DNA from: a bacterium
GTDB lineage: Bacteria; CSSED10-310; JAJRTK01
DNA length: 8,306 bases
Assembly (NCBI GenBank): GCA_024278345.1
Contig: JAJRTK010000068.1
Coordinates: 1-8,306 of the forward strand
Reading direction: 5' to 3'
Shown: positions 1,358-8,306 of the stretch, one piece after another
How positions within the stretch are numbered: the stretch's first letter is position 1
How the letters are laid out: every line of letters begins with the position of its first letter
Position numbers and translations under genes: made by a program
Notes under the pieces: generated by a model
The model's database searches: none
The model's input: the letters and a program-made list of their open reading frames with translations, nothing else
Told to the model about the DNA's origin: nothing

Positions 1358-1609
1358 CCTTCGGACACCATGAGAAGCCTCATGAACGGCCTCCGCAAAT
1401 CGAAACCTCGCTACGCTCGACGGTACTCCGGGGACTCCGGCCGCGGCCCCGTGGGCCGCGTCTCGCTGCGCTCGCCATCCGGTCCCCTGGCAGGGCCTTC
1501 TCCCGCACCCACCAGGGAGCCCGCCGCGGACCGGTTGCAATTGGGAGGCAACGAGTTCCCCACTCACATCTTTGTACGCCGTGCATTTTTTGGGAGGGTG
1601 GCCGACACG
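1358..1609 (+). other. Hairpin-rich intergenic region
   Basis: The frame of the VWA gene is open back to 1370. However, the 80 extra residues are Arg/Pro/Ser-rich, have no Shine-Dalgarno, and would bury the signal peptide, so I treat this stretch as non-coding. It contains a perfect 8-bp hairpin, CGCGGCCC-CGT-GGGCCGCG (1442-1460), a CCCTG-G-CAGGG palindrome (1485-1495), and two 13-nt near-repeats CTCGCTACGCTCG (1407-1419) and CTCGCTGCGCTCG (1462-1474). There is also a GTTGC/GCAAC stem (1534-1552). CCAGGGAGC at 1512-1520 matches the left arm of the fourth hairpin of the 23-119 array, but its right arm is lost. A promoter for the downstream three genes may lie here; I could not pick one. Confidence 0.6.
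1565..1609 (+). promoter_or_regulatory. Leader module and RBS of the VWA gene
   Basis: CACATC (1565-1570) is followed by a 4-bp stem GTAC-GCC-GTGC (1574-1584), then A and T6 (1586-1591). Next come GGGAGGG (1592-1598) and GGTGGCCG leading to the start codon at 1610. GGGAGGG is a good Shine-Dalgarno, 11 nt before the ATG. The same order of elements occurs at 123-171 upstream of the acyltransferase gene. The stem plus T-run inside a leader could attenuate transcription, but the stem is short. Confidence 0.5.
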
Positions 1610-2983
1610 ATGACCAGTGTTGGATTTGGCGTAAGAAAAAGCTTCGGGAAGCTGCCCCGTCTGCCGTTCTGGCTGTTTTTTCTGGTGGGGATTTTCGTTT
1701 TGGGTTTACCGCCATCGGTTGCCGCGTCCACCAAAGAGGCCGGGACCGCCGTGTCTGGTGGCCCGGAATTGGGGGCGTTGATGGCAAGTGGGGGGAAGAT
1801 GGCGAGTAGCGGCGGACGGACTGCCGCCGATGCGAGCGGAACACAACACTCCTTGGAACAGGCACCGGAGGGAATGGCATCTGGTGACAAAATCGTTGTT
1901 TTCGCCGAGCCCACGGGCCAGTATCTGGTGGAAAACACGCTCCTCCGGGTGGTCGTCACACCTCCAGACGGCAAGGGAGTCCGATCCGTGGAGATCTCGG
2001 TGGACGGAAGGAGGGTCGCTCGTCTAAAGAAGCCCCCTTACGAGGTGGTCCACGATTTCGGAGATCGCCTGGAAGCCCACGAGATCACGGCGTTGGCGAT
2101 CTTGACCGACAAGAGCCGTCATCATGCGCAACTGAAGAGCCTGGCTGTTCCTCTTGCCTACACGCAAAACGTGAGCCTGGTGACCATCACCGTGGCGGTG
2201 CGGGATGAGAATGGCCAATACCGGATCGATTTGGGTCGGGAACGGTTCCGCGTCTATGAAAACGGACGGCCACAGAAAATCCGTTATTTCGGGCGCGACG
2301 CGGGGCCGTTGAAGATCGCTCTCGCCCTGGATTGCTCCGGGAGCATGAGCCGTGCGCTCCCCGCCCTCCGGCACGCGGCGGCGGCCTTCATCAAGAGCAA
2401 GAAACCCGAAGACGAGATCCAGGTCGTGCGCTTCAATGAGGTAACGGCCTTGCTTTGCCCGATGACCACGAACGCCAAAAAGCTCTGCCGCTCCATGGCT
2501 GGCCTGAAACCTGGAGGCGGCACTCTCCTTTGGGACGCCGTCTATGCCGCGGTCATCTCCCTTGGTGACGAGCGTTGCCACAAGGCCGTTCTTCTCTTCA
2601 CGGACGGTCGGGATGAGAGCAAAAATGCTGAAAATCCCGCGACTTGCACGACCTTTTCCGAGGCCGTTTCCGCTGCTCGGCAACGGCAAGTTCCCGTGTA
2701 CGCCATCGGCCTTGGACAGGAGGTCGATACCCGGGCGCTCCAGAGGCTGTCGGAGAAAACCGGAGGCCGGTTTCTGGCTGTGGCGCGGCCGGACGAGATC
2801 CAAGCGGCCTACGAAAAAATCTACCGGGACCTCACCCACCGCTACACTCTTTCCTACCAATCCAACAACGATCCGGCACCGGGTGAGTGGGTGGAAATCG
2901 AGGTAAGAGTTGACGATCCGATGCTGGAAGTCCACCATCAACAGGGTTACATCTCCGGAGATGATGATGGTGTTATGGAATAA
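1610..2983 (+). CDS. Secreted von Willebrand factor A domain protein
   Basis: From ATG 1610 the protein has 457 residues. It starts with a signal peptide: basic residues RKSFGK, hydrophobic core LPFWLFFLVGIFVLGL, likely cleavage after PPSVA. A low-complexity linker (about 40-90) follows and carries a repeat-derived peptide. Next is a beta-rich Ig-like segment (about 90-175), then the VTITVAVRDENGQYRIDLG / FRVYENGRPQKI block typical of the 'VWFA-related Acidobacterial domain' family. The VWA domain runs from about 235 to 415. Its metal-ion adhesion site appears complete: DCSGS (Asp241, Ser243, Ser245), Thr305 in GGGT and Asp332 in FTDGRD. Such proteins are exported and bind ligands through Mg2+. 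The ligand here is unknown. The start is chosen for the Shine-Dalgarno and the signal peptide; the frame is open upstream to 1370. The stop is one base before the next gene, implying co-transcription with the SPOR gene and mutS. Confidence 0.87.
   Translation: MTSVGFGVRKSFGKLPRLPFWLFFLVGIFVLGLPPSVAASTKEAGTAVSGGPELGALMASGGKMASSGGRTAADASGTQHSLEQAPEGMASGDKIVVFAEPTGQYLVENTLLRVVVTPPDGKGVRSVEISVDGRRVARLKKPPYEVVHDFGDRLEAHEITALAILTDKSRHHAQLKSLAVPLAYTQNVSLVTITVAVRDENGQYRIDLGRERFRVYENGRPQKIRYFGRDAGPLKIALALDCSGSMSRALPALRHAAAAFIKSKKPEDEIQVVRFNEVTALLCPMTTNAKKLCRSMAGLKPGGGTLLWDAVYAAVISLGDERCHKAVLLFTDGRDESKNAENPATCTTFSEAVSAARQRQVPVYAIGLGQEVDTRALQRLSEKTGGRFLAVARPDEIQAAYEKIYRDLTHRYTLSYQSNNDPAPGEWVEIEVRVDDPMLEVHHQQGYISGDDDGVME
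1799..1847 (+). repeat. Diverged copy of the ligase-end repeat inside the VWA gene
   Basis: These 49 nt match the reverse complement of 6770-6818 at 45 of 49 positions by eye, including an unbroken 21-nt core and the 11-nt block GCGAGCGGAAC. The core forms a palindrome, GGCGGC...GCCGCC. Here it encodes residues 64-79, MASSGGRTAADASGTQ, in the linker after the signal peptide. Similar pentapeptides occur just before (MASGG) and after (MASGD). The insertion keeps the reading frame. Confidence 0.8.
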
Positions 2984-2984
2984 G

Positions 2985-4085
2985 ATGATGTTTGATGGGT
3001 TTTCTTTCTCTTCAAGGCGCCCGTTTGGGGGCCTGGCCGGCTGGGTTTGGAGTTTCGTCCTCTTTTTGCTTGTCAGCGGCAACGCTTGGGCGGGGACACG
3101 GGAGCTGGACGCTCTTCGGTCGGCGGTGGAGGCCGATGGTATCCGTGGGCCGAAACTCGATATGGCGGGGGTCCTTGACGGGCTGACTCCAGAACAGACG
3201 CGGGAGGCCTTGCTGCTCCTAACCCATACGGTGGCCCCGGCTCAGCGACTTCGAGAAGTCCTTTCCTCTCTTTCGGAAGGAGACGACAAAGTCGCGGAGC
3301 TGGCCGCCTATCGCCAAATCGAGCTCGCGCACCTTTCTGGCGAGCTTCAGCGGGTTTATTCTCTTTCGGATGCCTTTCGCTTGGATCACCCGGGATCAGC
3401 GTTTCTGACGCGGACTCTCCTTCTTTCGGGGTGGTCTGCGCTGGAACAGAGAAAGCTCTCCCTTGCCAGTGAAAGATTTCTCCAGGTGCTTCTCCGGGCC
3501 CCTTCCAGCCCGGAGGCCCGGGAAGCCCAGGTGGGTCTGGGCGACTGCTATCGCCTGGAGGAGAGGTTCGACGAGGCGCTGGCGCAGTACTCCATCGTGG
3601 CCCGGGGCGACGCGAGGCGGACTGCCTGCCGCGCTCGTCTCCGTCTGGTGGAAATCGCCGTGGAACGGGACCTCCAGGCCGAGTCTTTGGCGGCACTCAG
3701 GTCGTTTCTTGGCTCCTGTGAGGGAGGCATCCTCCAGCGGGAACTGGAGAAGCGATGGCCGAAACTGGTGAAGCTGGCCCAGTCGGCCTCGCCAGATGAT
3801 TCGGGCTCCAAGACTGACGCGGGCGCTGAAACCCGCTATTGGGTGCAGCTCGGGGCCTACCGGAAGCTCGGGAATGCCCAGCGCCTGGTCTCCAAGCTGT
3901 CGCCTGGCACCAAGAATTTGACCGTCCACGAAACCGAGGTCTCCGGGGAAGCGATCTTCAAGGTTTGCAATGGCCCGTACCCGAGCGAGAAGGAGGCCCT
4001 CACGGCTCAGCATTCCCTGGAAGAAGAGCTTGGGCTCCTGGGGTTCGTCATCCGCCTGCCCGATAGCGAGCGCCGCCATGAGTGA
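2985..4085 (+). CDS. Exported TPR and SPOR-domain envelope protein
   Basis: From ATG 2985 the protein has 366 residues. It begins with a signal peptide containing SRRPF (10-14), a hydrophobic core LAGWVWSFVLFLLVSG (17-32) and an AWA cleavage site at 34-36. A helical region follows. Its part near 140-205 (SGWSALEQRKLSLASERFLQVL, then GLGDCYRLEERFDEALAQYS; quoted in two pieces) looks like one or two tetratricopeptide repeats. The C-terminus from Tyr285 (YWVQLGAYRKLGNAQRLV) to about 358 is a SPOR domain. SPOR domains bind denuded peptidoglycan glycan strands, often at division sites, so a periplasmic role in wall remodelling or division is likely. The start follows the VWA stop TAA by one base, with GGAA 4 nt upstream. 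Alternatives are ATG 2988 (slightly better spacing) and ATG 2967 (GGAG 6 nt upstream). The 3' end overlaps mutS by 8 nt. No specific orthologue is recognised. Confidence 0.85.
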   Translation: MMFDGFSFSSRRPFGGLAGWVWSFVLFLLVSGNAWAGTRELDALRSAVEADGIRGPKLDMAGVLDGLTPEQTREALLLLTHTVAPAQRLREVLSSLSEGDDKVAELAAYRQIELAHLSGELQRVYSLSDAFRLDHPGSAFLTRTLLLSGWSALEQRKLSLASERFLQVLLRAPSSPEAREAQVGLGDCYRLEERFDEALAQYSIVARGDARRTACRARLRLVEIAVERDLQAESLAALRSFLGSCEGGILQRELEKRWPKLVKLAQSASPDDSGSKTDAGAETRYWVQLGAYRKLGNAQRLVSKLSPGTKNLTVHETEVSGEAIFKVCNGPYPSEKEALTAQHSLEEELGLLGFVIRLPDSERRHE

Positions 4086-6720
4086 GATCGAACAGAAAAG
4101 CAGTGCCCGGCGAACGCCGATGATGACGCAGTATCTCTCCTTCAAGGAAGAGTACCCGGACGCGCTGCTCCTTTTCCGGATGGGCGACTTCTACGAGATG
4201 TTTTTCGACGACGCCCGCTTGGCCTCCAAGGCGCTGGATATCGCCCTCACCAGCCGAGACCGGAACAAAAAGGAGGGGATCCCCATGGCGGGAATCCCCC
4301 ACCATGCCCTGGACAGCTACCTGCCAAAACTAGTGCAGCAGGGCTTCAAGGTGGCCATCTGCGATCAGGTGGAGGACGCCCGAAAAGCCAAAGGCCTTGT
4401 GAAGCGGGATGTCGTTCGCGTCGTGACCCCGGGAACCGTCACCACGCCTGGAATGCTCTCCGCCGCGGAAAACTGCTACATCCTGGCTCTGGTCCATGGG
4501 CGCAAAGGTCGAGGTCGCCTTCTGGGTGTGGCTTTTTCCGATCTCTCCACCGGTGAATTCATCGCCTGCGAATTTCAGGGCGTTCAGTGCGAGGAAGATG
4601 CCGAGGCTCTGCTCATGAAGCTCCGGCCCAAGGAGATCCTCCTTCCCCGTGGCACGCTCTTGGAGGGACGGCTTGGACTCCTGGCCCAAGAGCTAGGAGC
4701 CCCCGTCTCCTATTCCGACGCGGATGGTTTCGCCAAGAGCCCGGCCAGGAGGGCGCTCCTGGAGCAATTCGAGGTGGTGACGCTGGAGGGGTTCGGCCTT
4801 GGCGGCATGCCCTGGGCCGAACGTGCCGCCGGCGGCCTCCTACGGTATCTGGAAGAGACGCAAAAACAGAGCCTCCAGCACATTCGCCTCCTGCAAGTTT
4901 ACGACGCCTCCGATGCCCTGGTTCTCGACGCCACCAGCCAAGCAAATCTCGAGCTGGTCCAATCACTCCGGGACGGCGGGCAAAGCGGGAGTCTTTTGCA
5001 GGTCCTCCACAAGACTCGAACGGCCATGGGTTCGCGCCTCCTCAGGAAATGGCTCCTCTCGCCCTTGGTGGATTTGGAACGGATCGAGGAGCGCCTGGAC
5101 GCCGTGGGACTTCTTCGGGACTCGCAGATCCTCCGGGCGGAGATCCGGGAAACCTTCGATTCCGTGGCCGATCTGGAAAGGCTGGCGGGCCGTGTAGGCC
5201 TCGGGCGGGTTCGCGGCCGTGAACTCCGCGCACTGAGGGAATCACTGGCCGCTCTTCCTCGCTTCGGAAAGCTCTTGAAGGAGTCGCCGGCGGACCTTCT
5301 GCAAAAGCTGGCCTCGGAAATCGACCCCCTGGAAGAGATCTTCGATCTGTTGCAACGGGCGGTCTCTGAAGAACCTCCTCAACTGCCCAGGGACGGAGGC
5401 CTCATCCGGGAGGGCTACTCTCCCAGGCTCGACGAGCTCCGGGCGCTGGCCCGAGACACCCGAACGGAGCTTCTCCGGTTCGAAGCCCGAGAGCGCCAAA
5501 TGACGGGTATCCCGAACCTCAAAGTCAAGCACAACAAAGTGTTCGGATTTTTCATCGAGGTGCGGAAGACTCAAGAATCAAAAGTTCCGGATCGCTACAT
5601 CCGGAAACAGACCCTAGTGGGCTCGGAACGGTATATCACGGAGGAGCTCGCCGGTTTCGAGGAACGCGTCTCCAGCGCCCAAGAGGAATCACTGGCCCTG
5701 GAAATCGAGCTCTTCGAAAAACTCAAAGCAACCCTTGCCAAGGCCACGGCCAGGCTCCAATCAACGGCCGCTGCCCTGGCGGTCCTCGATGTCCTGGCAA
5801 CCTTGGCCGAAGTGGCCGCGACCCAGGGCTACAACCGGCCCAAGCTCCACGGCGGCTCAGCGATCCGGATTACCGACGGCCGACACGCCGTGGTGGAGTC
5901 TCTCTCCGATATAGACTACGTGCCCAGCGACTGCCTCATGGACGCGGAAAAGGAACAGATTCTTCTCATCACCGGCCCCAACATGGCTGGGAAGTCCACC
6001 TATATGCGACAGGTGGCCCTCATCGTCATCCTAGCGCAAATGGGTTCGTTCGTCCCCGCCAAGGAAGCCCATATCGGCATTGTCGATCGGATCTTCACCC
6101 GCGTGGGCGCCTCGGACAACCTCGTCCGCGGACTCTCCACCTTCATGGTAGAAATGAGCGAAACCGCCAATATCCTCAACAATTGCACCGATCAAAGCCT
6201 CATCCTCCTGGACGAAATCGGTCGGGGCACTTCCACTTTCGACGGCCTGGCCATCGCCTGGGCCGTCACCGAACACCTCCACGGAGCCAAGAAAACCGGC
6301 CCTCGCACCCTTTTCGCCACTCACTACCACGAGATCACGGCACTGGATAAAGAGCTTCCACGCCTCATCAATCTCCATATTGCCGTCCACGAGTGGCGAG
6401 AACAGATCCTCTTTCTTCGCAAAATCCGGCCAGGCCCGGCATCCCAAAGCTACGGAATCCAGGTGGCCAGGCTCGCCGGCCTCCCCAAAAAAGTCGTTGC
6501 CAGGGCAAGGCAAGTGCTGGACAGCCTGGAGCAAGGCCAAAGGGGGCGTCTGCCGGTGGAGCCACCGGTTCCCATGGAACAACAGCTCGATCTCTTTGCC
6601 GATGGCAAGAGGGACCTCCTTCGGGATCTCAGCCGCGAAAAGATCGATGCCATGACTCCCATCGAAGCCTTGAACCGCCTCGCCCGCTACGCCCAAAGGT
6701 CGCAAGAACTCACCCTCTGA
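4078..6720 (+). CDS. mutS: DNA mismatch repair protein MutS
   Basis: This is the dimeric ATPase that recognises base mismatches and small loops in newly replicated DNA and recruits MutL. From ATG 4078 it has 880 residues, a normal MutS1 length. The mismatch-reading F-x-E motif is in GDFYEMF (Phe38, Glu40). The ATPase domain has Walker A GPNMAGKS (633-640), the STFMVEMSETANIL signature, Walker B LILLDEIGRGTSTFDG (Asp712, Glu713) and ATHYHE (about 747-752). QLDLF at 836-840 fits the consensus beta-clamp-binding pentapeptide found near the MutS C-terminus. The ending TPIEALNRLARYA is also typical. All key residues are present, so it should be active. The frame is open upstream to 3970, but those 36 residues fall within the SPOR gene in another frame and are not MutS-like. 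The 8-nt ATGAGTGA overlap and poor Shine-Dalgarno suggest translational coupling to the SPOR gene. Confidence 0.97.
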   Translation: MSEIEQKSSARRTPMMTQYLSFKEEYPDALLLFRMGDFYEMFFDDARLASKALDIALTSRDRNKKEGIPMAGIPHHALDSYLPKLVQQGFKVAICDQVEDARKAKGLVKRDVVRVVTPGTVTTPGMLSAAENCYILALVHGRKGRGRLLGVAFSDLSTGEFIACEFQGVQCEEDAEALLMKLRPKEILLPRGTLLEGRLGLLAQELGAPVSYSDADGFAKSPARRALLEQFEVVTLEGFGLGGMPWAERAAGGLLRYLEETQKQSLQHIRLLQVYDASDALVLDATSQANLELVQSLRDGGQSGSLLQVLHKTRTAMGSRLLRKWLLSPLVDLERIEERLDAVGLLRDSQILRAEIRETFDSVADLERLAGRVGLGRVRGRELRALRESLAALPRFGKLLKESPADLLQKLASEIDPLEEIFDLLQRAVSEEPPQLPRDGGLIREGYSPRLDELRALARDTRTELLRFEARERQMTGIPNLKVKHNKVFGFFIEVRKTQESKVPDRYIRKQTLVGSERYITEELAGFEERVSSAQEESLALEIELFEKLKATLAKATARLQSTAAALAVLDVLATLAEVAATQGYNRPKLHGGSAIRITDGRHAVVESLSDIDYVPSDCLMDAEKEQILLITGPNMAGKSTYMRQVALIVILAQMGSFVPAKEAHIGIVDRIFTRVGASDNLVRGLSTFMVEMSETANILNNCTDQSLILLDEIGRGTSTFDGLAIAWAVTEHLHGAKKTGPRTLFATHYHEITALDKELPRLINLHIAVHEWREQILFLRKIRPGPASQSYGIQVARLAGLPKKVVARARQVLDSLEQGQRGRLPVEPPVPMEQQLDLFADGKRDLLRDLSREKIDAMTPIEALNRLARYAQRSQELTL

Positions 6721-6759
6721 CCCGGGCATTCCAGGCAAAAAGCCAAGCACTCCGAAGCT

Positions 6760-6997
6760 CCACTTTCGGGTTGCGTTCCGCTCGCGGCGGCGGCAGTCCG
6801 TCCGCCGCCACTCGCCATTGTCGCTGCTCTCGCTATCCACCACCCGAAGCCCGAAGCGCCACCCCACTTTCGGGTTGCGTTCCGCTGGCGGCGGCAGTCC
6901 GTCCGCCGCCACTCGCCATTGTCGCTGCTCTCGCTATCCACCACCCGAAGCCCGAAGCGACACCCCACTTTCGGGTTGCGTTCCGCTGGCGGCGGCA
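6760..6997. repeat. Tandem 101/104-nt palindrome-bearing repeat
   Basis: Three head-to-tail units are seen: 6760-6863 (104 nt), 6864-6964 (101 nt) and a truncated 6965-6997 (33 nt). Unit 1 has an extra 3 nt in its CGCGGCGGCGG stretch; otherwise the units are almost identical. Each full unit carries the inverted repeat GCGGCGG-CAGTCCGT-CCGCCGC. The first unit lies between the converging genes, and the second and third lie within the 3' end of the ligase gene. Because 101 is not a multiple of three, each unit is read in a different frame. A diverged partial copy lies in the VWA gene at 1799-1847. No transposase or obvious target duplication is visible. The dyad could also slow or end transcription between the convergent genes, though no T-run follows it. 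Confidence 0.9.
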
Positions 6998-8287
6998 CGA
7001 CCCGCGCCGAGCCCTGGCAACACCACGCCAGCCCGCCACGGCGGCCACCACCGCGAAGATCCGCCAAGGGTAGAAGTTCAGGAGACAGCGATAAAAAAGT
7101 CCACCGATGACAAAGACGCCCAACGCCAACCGGCTGGCGCGCTCCAGCTCCGCCCACCGCAGCGTTTCCCGGCTTTCCCGAAGAAGTGGCGCCGCCGATG
7201 GCGACGCGCCGCCCAAGACTCCCAGGAGCAAGAGAAGATAGGCTGCGAGCCCCAAAAATCCCGTCTCCGCCGCGAGCTGCACGTAATCGTTGTGAAGATT
7301 GTACCACTTTCGCCGCTGCCCCAAGGCCGATGCCGGTGGATCATCGAAAAGGCTTCCCTTCTTGTAAAGGTCGTAGACCACCCGGACATTCCCCAGGCCC
7401 ACGCCCATCATTGGATGCTCTCTCGCGACGGCCAACCCGGTTCTTGCCATATCGAACCGCATCCGGAGCGACGATGGCGGGCTTTTCTCCACGGCCTCCA
7501 CCCGAAACGCCTCCCGAATACGGAGCTGGTGGTTTGAGGGCAACCACCCGAAGGCGAAAAAAACCAGGGGAGGCAGCAAAAGAAAGGCCGCCGGCGCTCG
7601 GTGGTACACCTCGGCGAACACCAGGAATAGAAGGAAGACCAGGGCGGCACGGCTGCCCGACAGAAGGCAGTGCATGGCCAGCAGCAAGGCCAGGGCGGCC
7701 GCGGCAATCCTCACGGCTGGCCGCCAGTTTCGGCTAGTGGCCAGGGGAAGGATCAAGGCAAGGGACATTGCCGCCATCTGGGCGAGCTGCAAATAGTCGA
7801 TCCGCGTCCGGAGCTCGCCACCCCACAGGCTCCAGGCAGTGATGCCAACGATGGAGTGGAGGGCTACTCCACCAGCCAGGCCTAAAAATGCGAAAGCCAC
7901 CACCGAAGGCCGCAACCGCCTCGGCTCCACCGCCACCGCCGCCACAAGATAAAGCAACTTGCTCCACTGCCGCAGGCTCTGCCAGGGATCCAGGGAGACA
8001 ACAGCGCTGACCAGGGCAATCGCCAAAAAGCCCAGCCCGGCCCACGTCGCCCGAGGCAATCGAAACGGTTCGCCCAAAGTCCAGGCCGCCACCCTCAGGA
8101 CCAAGGCTGCCGTAAAGCCCAACTCGAAAAAAAACGGCCCCATGGGCAGGAGCACCAGGCCCGCCAGTCCCAGGAGTGTCGCCCATGCCGCCAGCCCCTG
8201 GCCCAACGTCCCGGGAGGCCTCGAAACCAGACTCAGGGGAATCCACCCCGGAACCCGGCGGCCAGGCCGCGGATCCTTTCCCGCCAT
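6833..8287 (-). CDS. O-antigen ligase/Wzy_C-like membrane protein with repeat-derived tail
   Basis: From ATG 8287 (minus strand) the protein has 484 residues. The frame stays open to the window edge, with TTG at 8305, so the true start may lie further upstream. It is strongly hydrophobic, with about ten predicted membrane helices, starting near residues 31-48 and ending at about FAVVAAVAGW. Family features are LLSGSRAALVFLLFLV (Arg213), HPMMGVGLGNV, and the large periplasmic-loop motif HNDYVQLAAETGFLGLAAYL (His332). These belong to the O-antigen ligase/polymerase superfamily, which transfers or polymerises undecaprenyl-linked glycans on the periplasmic face. WaaL-type ligation to lipid A-core is the simplest reading. 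Polymerase or protein O-glycosyltransferase activity is possible. Residues 431-484 are encoded by the tandem repeat and have no counterpart in the family as I know it. The natural end is probably near ARARRGS. The gene converges on mutS, with 112 nt between them. Confidence 0.85.
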   Translation of the reverse strand: MAGKDPRPGRRVPGWIPLSLVSRPPGTLGQGLAAWATLLGLAGLVLLPMGPFFFELGFTAALVLRVAAWTLGEPFRLPRATWAGLGFLAIALVSAVVSLDPWQSLRQWSKLLYLVAAVAVEPRRLRPSVVAFAFLGLAGGVALHSIVGITAWSLWGGELRTRIDYLQLAQMAAMSLALILPLATSRNWRPAVRIAAAALALLLAMHCLLSGSRAALVFLLFLVFAEVYHRAPAAFLLLPPLVFFAFGWLPSNHQLRIREAFRVEAVEKSPPSSLRMRFDMARTGLAVAREHPMMGVGLGNVRVVYDLYKKGSLFDDPPASALGQRRKWYNLHNDYVQLAAETGFLGLAAYLLLLLGVLGGASPSAAPLLRESRETLRWAELERASRLALGVFVIGGLFYRCLLNFYPWRIFAVVAAVAGWRGVARARRGSCRRQRNATRKWGVASGFGWWIARAATMASGGGRTAAASGTQPESGVALRASGGG

Positions 8288-8306
8288 CGCCTCCGGTCTC
8301 TCCAAC

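Follow-up and report, generated by a model that had tools for sequence, protein, structure and literature searches.

The locus

The window, that is, the whole stretch of 8,306 nucleotides analysed here, lies on contig 535 of a 6.06 Mb host assembly that comprises 550 contigs and is 87.9% complete. Two of its genes had been described beforehand as encoding a VWA protein and a ligase, and Pfam searches bore this out, matching the VWA domain in the one and the Wzy_C domain of O-antigen ligases in the other. The features relevant to the present analysis are the following:

1610–2983, plus strand: VWA gene, with a signal peptide at about 1610–1730 and a VWA domain; the coding model supports both sides of the insert
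1756–1849, plus strand: truncated in-frame copy of the putative MITE, comprising the left terminal repeat (GGTGGCCCGG, 1757) and the core and stopping shortly after the latter
1799–1847, plus strand: core hairpin segment of this copy, read as MASSGGRTAADASGTQ
4078–6720: MutS
6753–6863, minus strand: putative MITE copy, tandem unit 1, intergenic, in the mutS/ligase gap
6864–6964, minus strand: second tandem unit (101 nt, 99% identical), a putative MITE copy translated as MASGGGRTAAASGTQ in the C-terminus of the ligase
6958–6996, minus strand: third tandem unit, present as a remnant, which this ligase ORF translates in a different frame as CRRQRNATRKWG
6833–8305, minus strand: ORF of the O-antigen ligase (Wzy_C), entering the repeat array at its 3' end

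The MutS protein is 43–49% identical to its relatives, which come from many phyla (GTDB 220 contigs), meaning that the host lineage is thinly sampled. For comparisons within the phylum, eight genomes were used, namely the host and seven others.

The segment at 1799–1847 matches the reverse complement of 6770–6818 at 45 of 49 positions (91.8%, blastn), while a second copy at 6919–6874, shorter by 3 nt, is 87.8% identical over 49 alignment columns with one gap; the matches reported in the preliminary description were thus reproduced. An 18-nt core, GGCGGACGGACTGCCGCC, occurs exactly at 1811–1828 on the plus strand and at 6789–6806 and 6890–6907 on the minus strand. Even with three mismatches allowed, 0.04 copies would be expected in the window by chance, versus the three found. 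The two ORFs also read the segment in the same sense and codon phase, as had been stated, the peptides MASSGGRTAADASGTQ and MASGGGRTAAASGTQ being present in the VWA and ligase ORFs, respectively. A repeat unit of 101 nt does exist, as a tandem duplication at 6786–6987 (99% identical) where mutS and the ligase gene converge, but it is a local feature only, the element found genome-wide being about 148 bp long.

A dispersed element with transposon ends

Copy numbers were obtained by pattern searches of the whole host genome, whereas the tests of location relied on about 540 kb of loci; the ends of the element were worked out from 30, and later about 170, of these host loci. A degenerate search of the host genome (G000) returned at least 268 core copies at no more than two mismatches, a figure that is a lower bound on the size of the family, and none for the reversed control. 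The suggestion that the segment belongs to a dispersed, palindrome-containing repeat family was therefore well founded.

Full elements measure about 148 bp (range 144–174 bp), and copies stop abruptly at GGTGGTGCTCCRGCC...GAAGAGCACGACC. At their ends they carry imperfect terminal inverted repeats (TIRs), GGTSGTGCTCYRGCCYTAGGGC, the left one being GGTGGTGCTCYRGCCYTAGGGC and the right one, as reverse complement, GGTCGTGCTCTTCTTTTAGGGC; in several subfamilies the ends are paired 144–174 bp apart. Among 45 full copies, 13 were flanked by exact target-site duplications (TSDs) of a fixed length of 8 bp, and 26 by such duplications with up to two mismatches, compared with none and about two, respectively, expected from swapped flanks. 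Examples are agaattcg (L016), gaaaaccg (L201) and cgactttg (L180); in old copies the duplications have decayed. The subfamilies differ by their central hairpin, which can be GGCGGACGGACTGCCGCC, GGGCGCCGGATGGCGACC or GGGTGCCGGACGGCGCCC, with further forms bearing an extra CGCGGGGAACTCGCGCCACAGGCGCGGGTCG, and alternative apical hairpins, such as GGGGAACTCGCGCCACAGGCGCGGGTC, are swapped among them.

The terminal repeats, the 8-bp duplications, the lengths of 144–174 bp and the hairpin subfamilies are marks of a miniature inverted-repeat transposable element (MITE), and the short size, high copy number and lack of coding capacity agree with this assignment. The repeat is thus very probably a family of non-autonomous DNA transposons of about 148 bp, one truncated copy of which came to lie in frame in the VWA gene, while the tails of the ligase and of a further protein (L233) arose by read-through.

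Position of the copies relative to genes

To call coding segments, a model of codon phase was trained on the long ORFs found in this DNA, and the elements were masked. Flanks were usable for 167 copies, among which 154 lay outside coding segments, 6 overlapped the end of a segment and 7 lay inside, as against 228 of 342 random positions (67%) inside. Five of the seven apparent in-gene copies were in fact upstream of the true start of a gene (murA-like, recQ-like, prepilin-like and two for outer-membrane proteins, names that were taken from the translations without database search), one was in a doubtful ORF, and the last was the VWA copy, the only one of the 167 to have real coding sequence on both flanks. 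The orientation of genes around the copies was like that around other gaps, and no preference of context or orientation emerged that could serve as a regulatory hint.

The copy in the VWA gene

The 3' third of the VWA copy is absent or unrecognisable, most matches ending at 1847–1850, and no TSD could be recognised. What is left is 86% identical to L084 over 85 nt and 96% identical to L183 over 51 nt (E about 1e-18 to 1e-23). A signal peptide precedes the copy and the conserved domain follows it. In the best orthologue found in the phylum, L222 (28% identity), only about 5 residues separate the signal peptide from the first conserved block, versus about 48 in the VWA protein. The orthologue thus lacks some 43 residues, and the peptide is, as had been proposed, an insert and not native sequence.

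The DNA homology, together with this single, 28%-identical orthologue, points to an insertion event in which a copy would have entered the gene after the signal peptide and ahead of the first domain. A deletion may then have removed its 3' third, leaving the remainder in frame, and the remaining fragment would be read as a linker. Separately, the start of the VWA gene (ATGACC, 1610) falls within an apparent decayed right end of a second repeat family (window 1562–1620), so that start and linker may both be repeat-derived.

The ligase array and the L233 tail

In the ligase ORF, the remnant is translated as CRRQRNATRKWG and the unit that follows as MASGGGRTAAASGTQ; since a period of 101 nt is not divisible by three, the frame changes from one to the other. 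The copy in the ligase does lie at the C-terminus and is read in the frame originally reported, but it represents 3' read-through past the end of the domain rather than an insertion. In other words, the tail is an extension of the ORF into the array, not a designed insertion. A similar case was seen on the minus strand at L233 (contig C368), where a protein that has a hydrophobic segment at the C-terminus gains a MITE-derived end, ...DAPGLGQLMARGEGMASSGRRTAPDESGTQQ, in the frame of the VWA peptide. Stop codons being rare in the element, both ORFs would simply run on into the adjoining copy. The codon phase common to the VWA, ligase and L233 cases is not significant, as chance alone would produce it with a probability of about one in nine.

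Distribution and search for a mobilising transposase

No copy was detected in the seven other genomes of the phylum, and neither the GTDB 220 contigs nor IMG/VR contained an exact match to the pattern. Searches with left- and right-end patterns in the 87.9%-complete, 550-contig assembly revealed no transposase between element ends, nor was any transposase with matching ends found among the matches to three families (PF01610, PF12762 and PF00872) in this incomplete assembly. An ISL3 copy, L237, was discarded as autonomous partner, as its ends are different and its gene is split by a MITE of the second family. Two IS1595 copies, L320 and L321, were likewise discarded, as they have ends (GGCTCTATATGCGATCC) unlike the element repeats, and a MITE copy merely adjoins one of them. 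The copies were presumably moved by a DDE transposase acting in trans, which would since have been lost or might reside in an unassembled part of the genome.

At L320 (2037–2236, contig C322), a second right end occurs at most 31 nt after the MITE copy, adjoining the IS1595-type transposase gene. This double right end could reflect nested insertion or recombination.

Alternative explanations

The preliminary description had likened the repeat to the palindromic elements of Rickettsia (RPEs) and had suggested a coding-compatible family. RPEs are frequent within genes, where they code for a conserved peptide (summarised in PMC10969869); a family of this type would spread into genes in frame, contributing a peptide. 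The likeness holds insofar as the element is palindromic and about 150 bp long and one copy is translated in frame, with C-terminal tails in the same phase in the ligase and L233; moreover, in the 148-bp subfamily the element plus its TSD amounts to 156 bp, or 3 × 52. However, such a frame-preserving size is true of some subfamilies only, the sum being a multiple of three in 24 of the 45 full copies, and the two units in the ligase ORF are read in two frames. Rather than entering many ORFs in frame, the family is intergenic, with a single copy of 167 in frame within a supported gene. The frame of the VWA peptide (the MASSGG frame) is open throughout in 13 of 45 full copies, against 28 of 45 for another forward frame. 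In the MASSGG frame, the differences between copies fall at codon positions 1, 2 and 3 in proportions of 51, 28 and 21%, with the fewest at position 3, which is the reverse of coding constraint; this bias may be due in part to the selection of copies by their core, but it still contains no coding signal. With location, frame and substitution tests all against it, a coding-compatible design is refuted at the level of the whole family, and we regard this explanation as highly improbable. It is harder still to credit a native, low-complexity origin of the VWA peptide, with a chance resemblance to the repeat. Linkers rich in Gly, Ala and Ser are indeed common, but the match to intergenic copies at the DNA level already excludes chance likeness, and the orthologue has no insert.

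A MITE could also carry an element acting as structured RNA or as single-stranded DNA, in which the central hairpin would function as a small RNA or as a site for a transposase or host factor. Pairing of this hairpin is kept (93% of cells paired), both sides were changed in 17 cells versus 5.4 in shuffles, and the exchange of apical hairpins between subfamilies would fit such a function. On the other hand, the double changes represent few events, common to subfamilies, and hairpin-templated mutation can likewise keep palindromes perfect. Fold z-scores of full elements were modest (−1.5 to −2.8), neither orientation nor gene context is favoured, and Rfam searches, by gathering threshold as well as by E-value, yielded no known RNA family. 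On balance, we consider a functional hairpin unlikely. Rather improbable, too, is the bolder version in which the hairpin, with its interchangeable apical parts, is selected as folded RNA or single strand, making the element effectively a mobile structured RNA of which one fragment was recruited as a protein linker.

Comparison with known elements

Read as a MITE, the family is a further bacterial example of a kind already described (reviewed in PMC10969869). By analogy, its closest precedents appear to be the MITE–gene fusions of Coxiella and, more loosely, the RPEs, alongside which in-frame and C-terminal MITE fusions have been reviewed (PMC10969869). The bacterial MITEs QMITE1 and QMITE2 of Coxiella burnetii are mostly intergenic and 3' of genes, with occasional C-terminal or in-frame extensions, such as one of 33 amino acids on EnhC in the Dugway strain (PMC5896051). 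The present family resembles them in short size, multiple copies, terminal inverted repeats, direct repeats and intergenic bias; there is no sign of sequence kinship, the two having been compared by description and not base by base. QMITE2 is 150–190 bp long, with direct repeats of 7–11 nt and 62–78 copies (PMC5896051), whereas our family has at least 268 core copies, 8-bp TSDs and no known mobilising element. With REPs, which are palindromes of 20–40 bp tagged by GTAG or CGTC (PMC3733652), it shares a GC-rich hairpin, high copy number and extragenic location, but it differs in its length of 144–174 bp, its TIRs and its 8-bp TSDs. Compared with the RPEs, it is intergenic and unconstrained as code.

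These results document a MITE family of very high abundance, not detected in the other collections searched, in a phylum that has been sparsely sampled. The VWA gene would provide a clear example of a non-coding transposon fragment turned into a protein linker between a signal peptide and a domain, suggesting that peptides common to unrelated proteins can arise from intergenic repeats with no coding-compatible design.

A second repeat family

The first 250 nt of the window hold a second, younger MITE-like family, with right ends at 153–178 and 225–250 that terminate in GGTGGCCGGTACCATGACCGAGGCC. There are 209 such GGTGGCCGGTACCATGACCGAGGCC ends in the genome, many of them near contig ends, which probably explains the fragmented assembly. 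At L237 (about 320–545, contig C5), it is a copy of this family that splits the ISL3-type transposase gene, with a 9-bp direct repeat, GTTCAAGCG, at its flanks.
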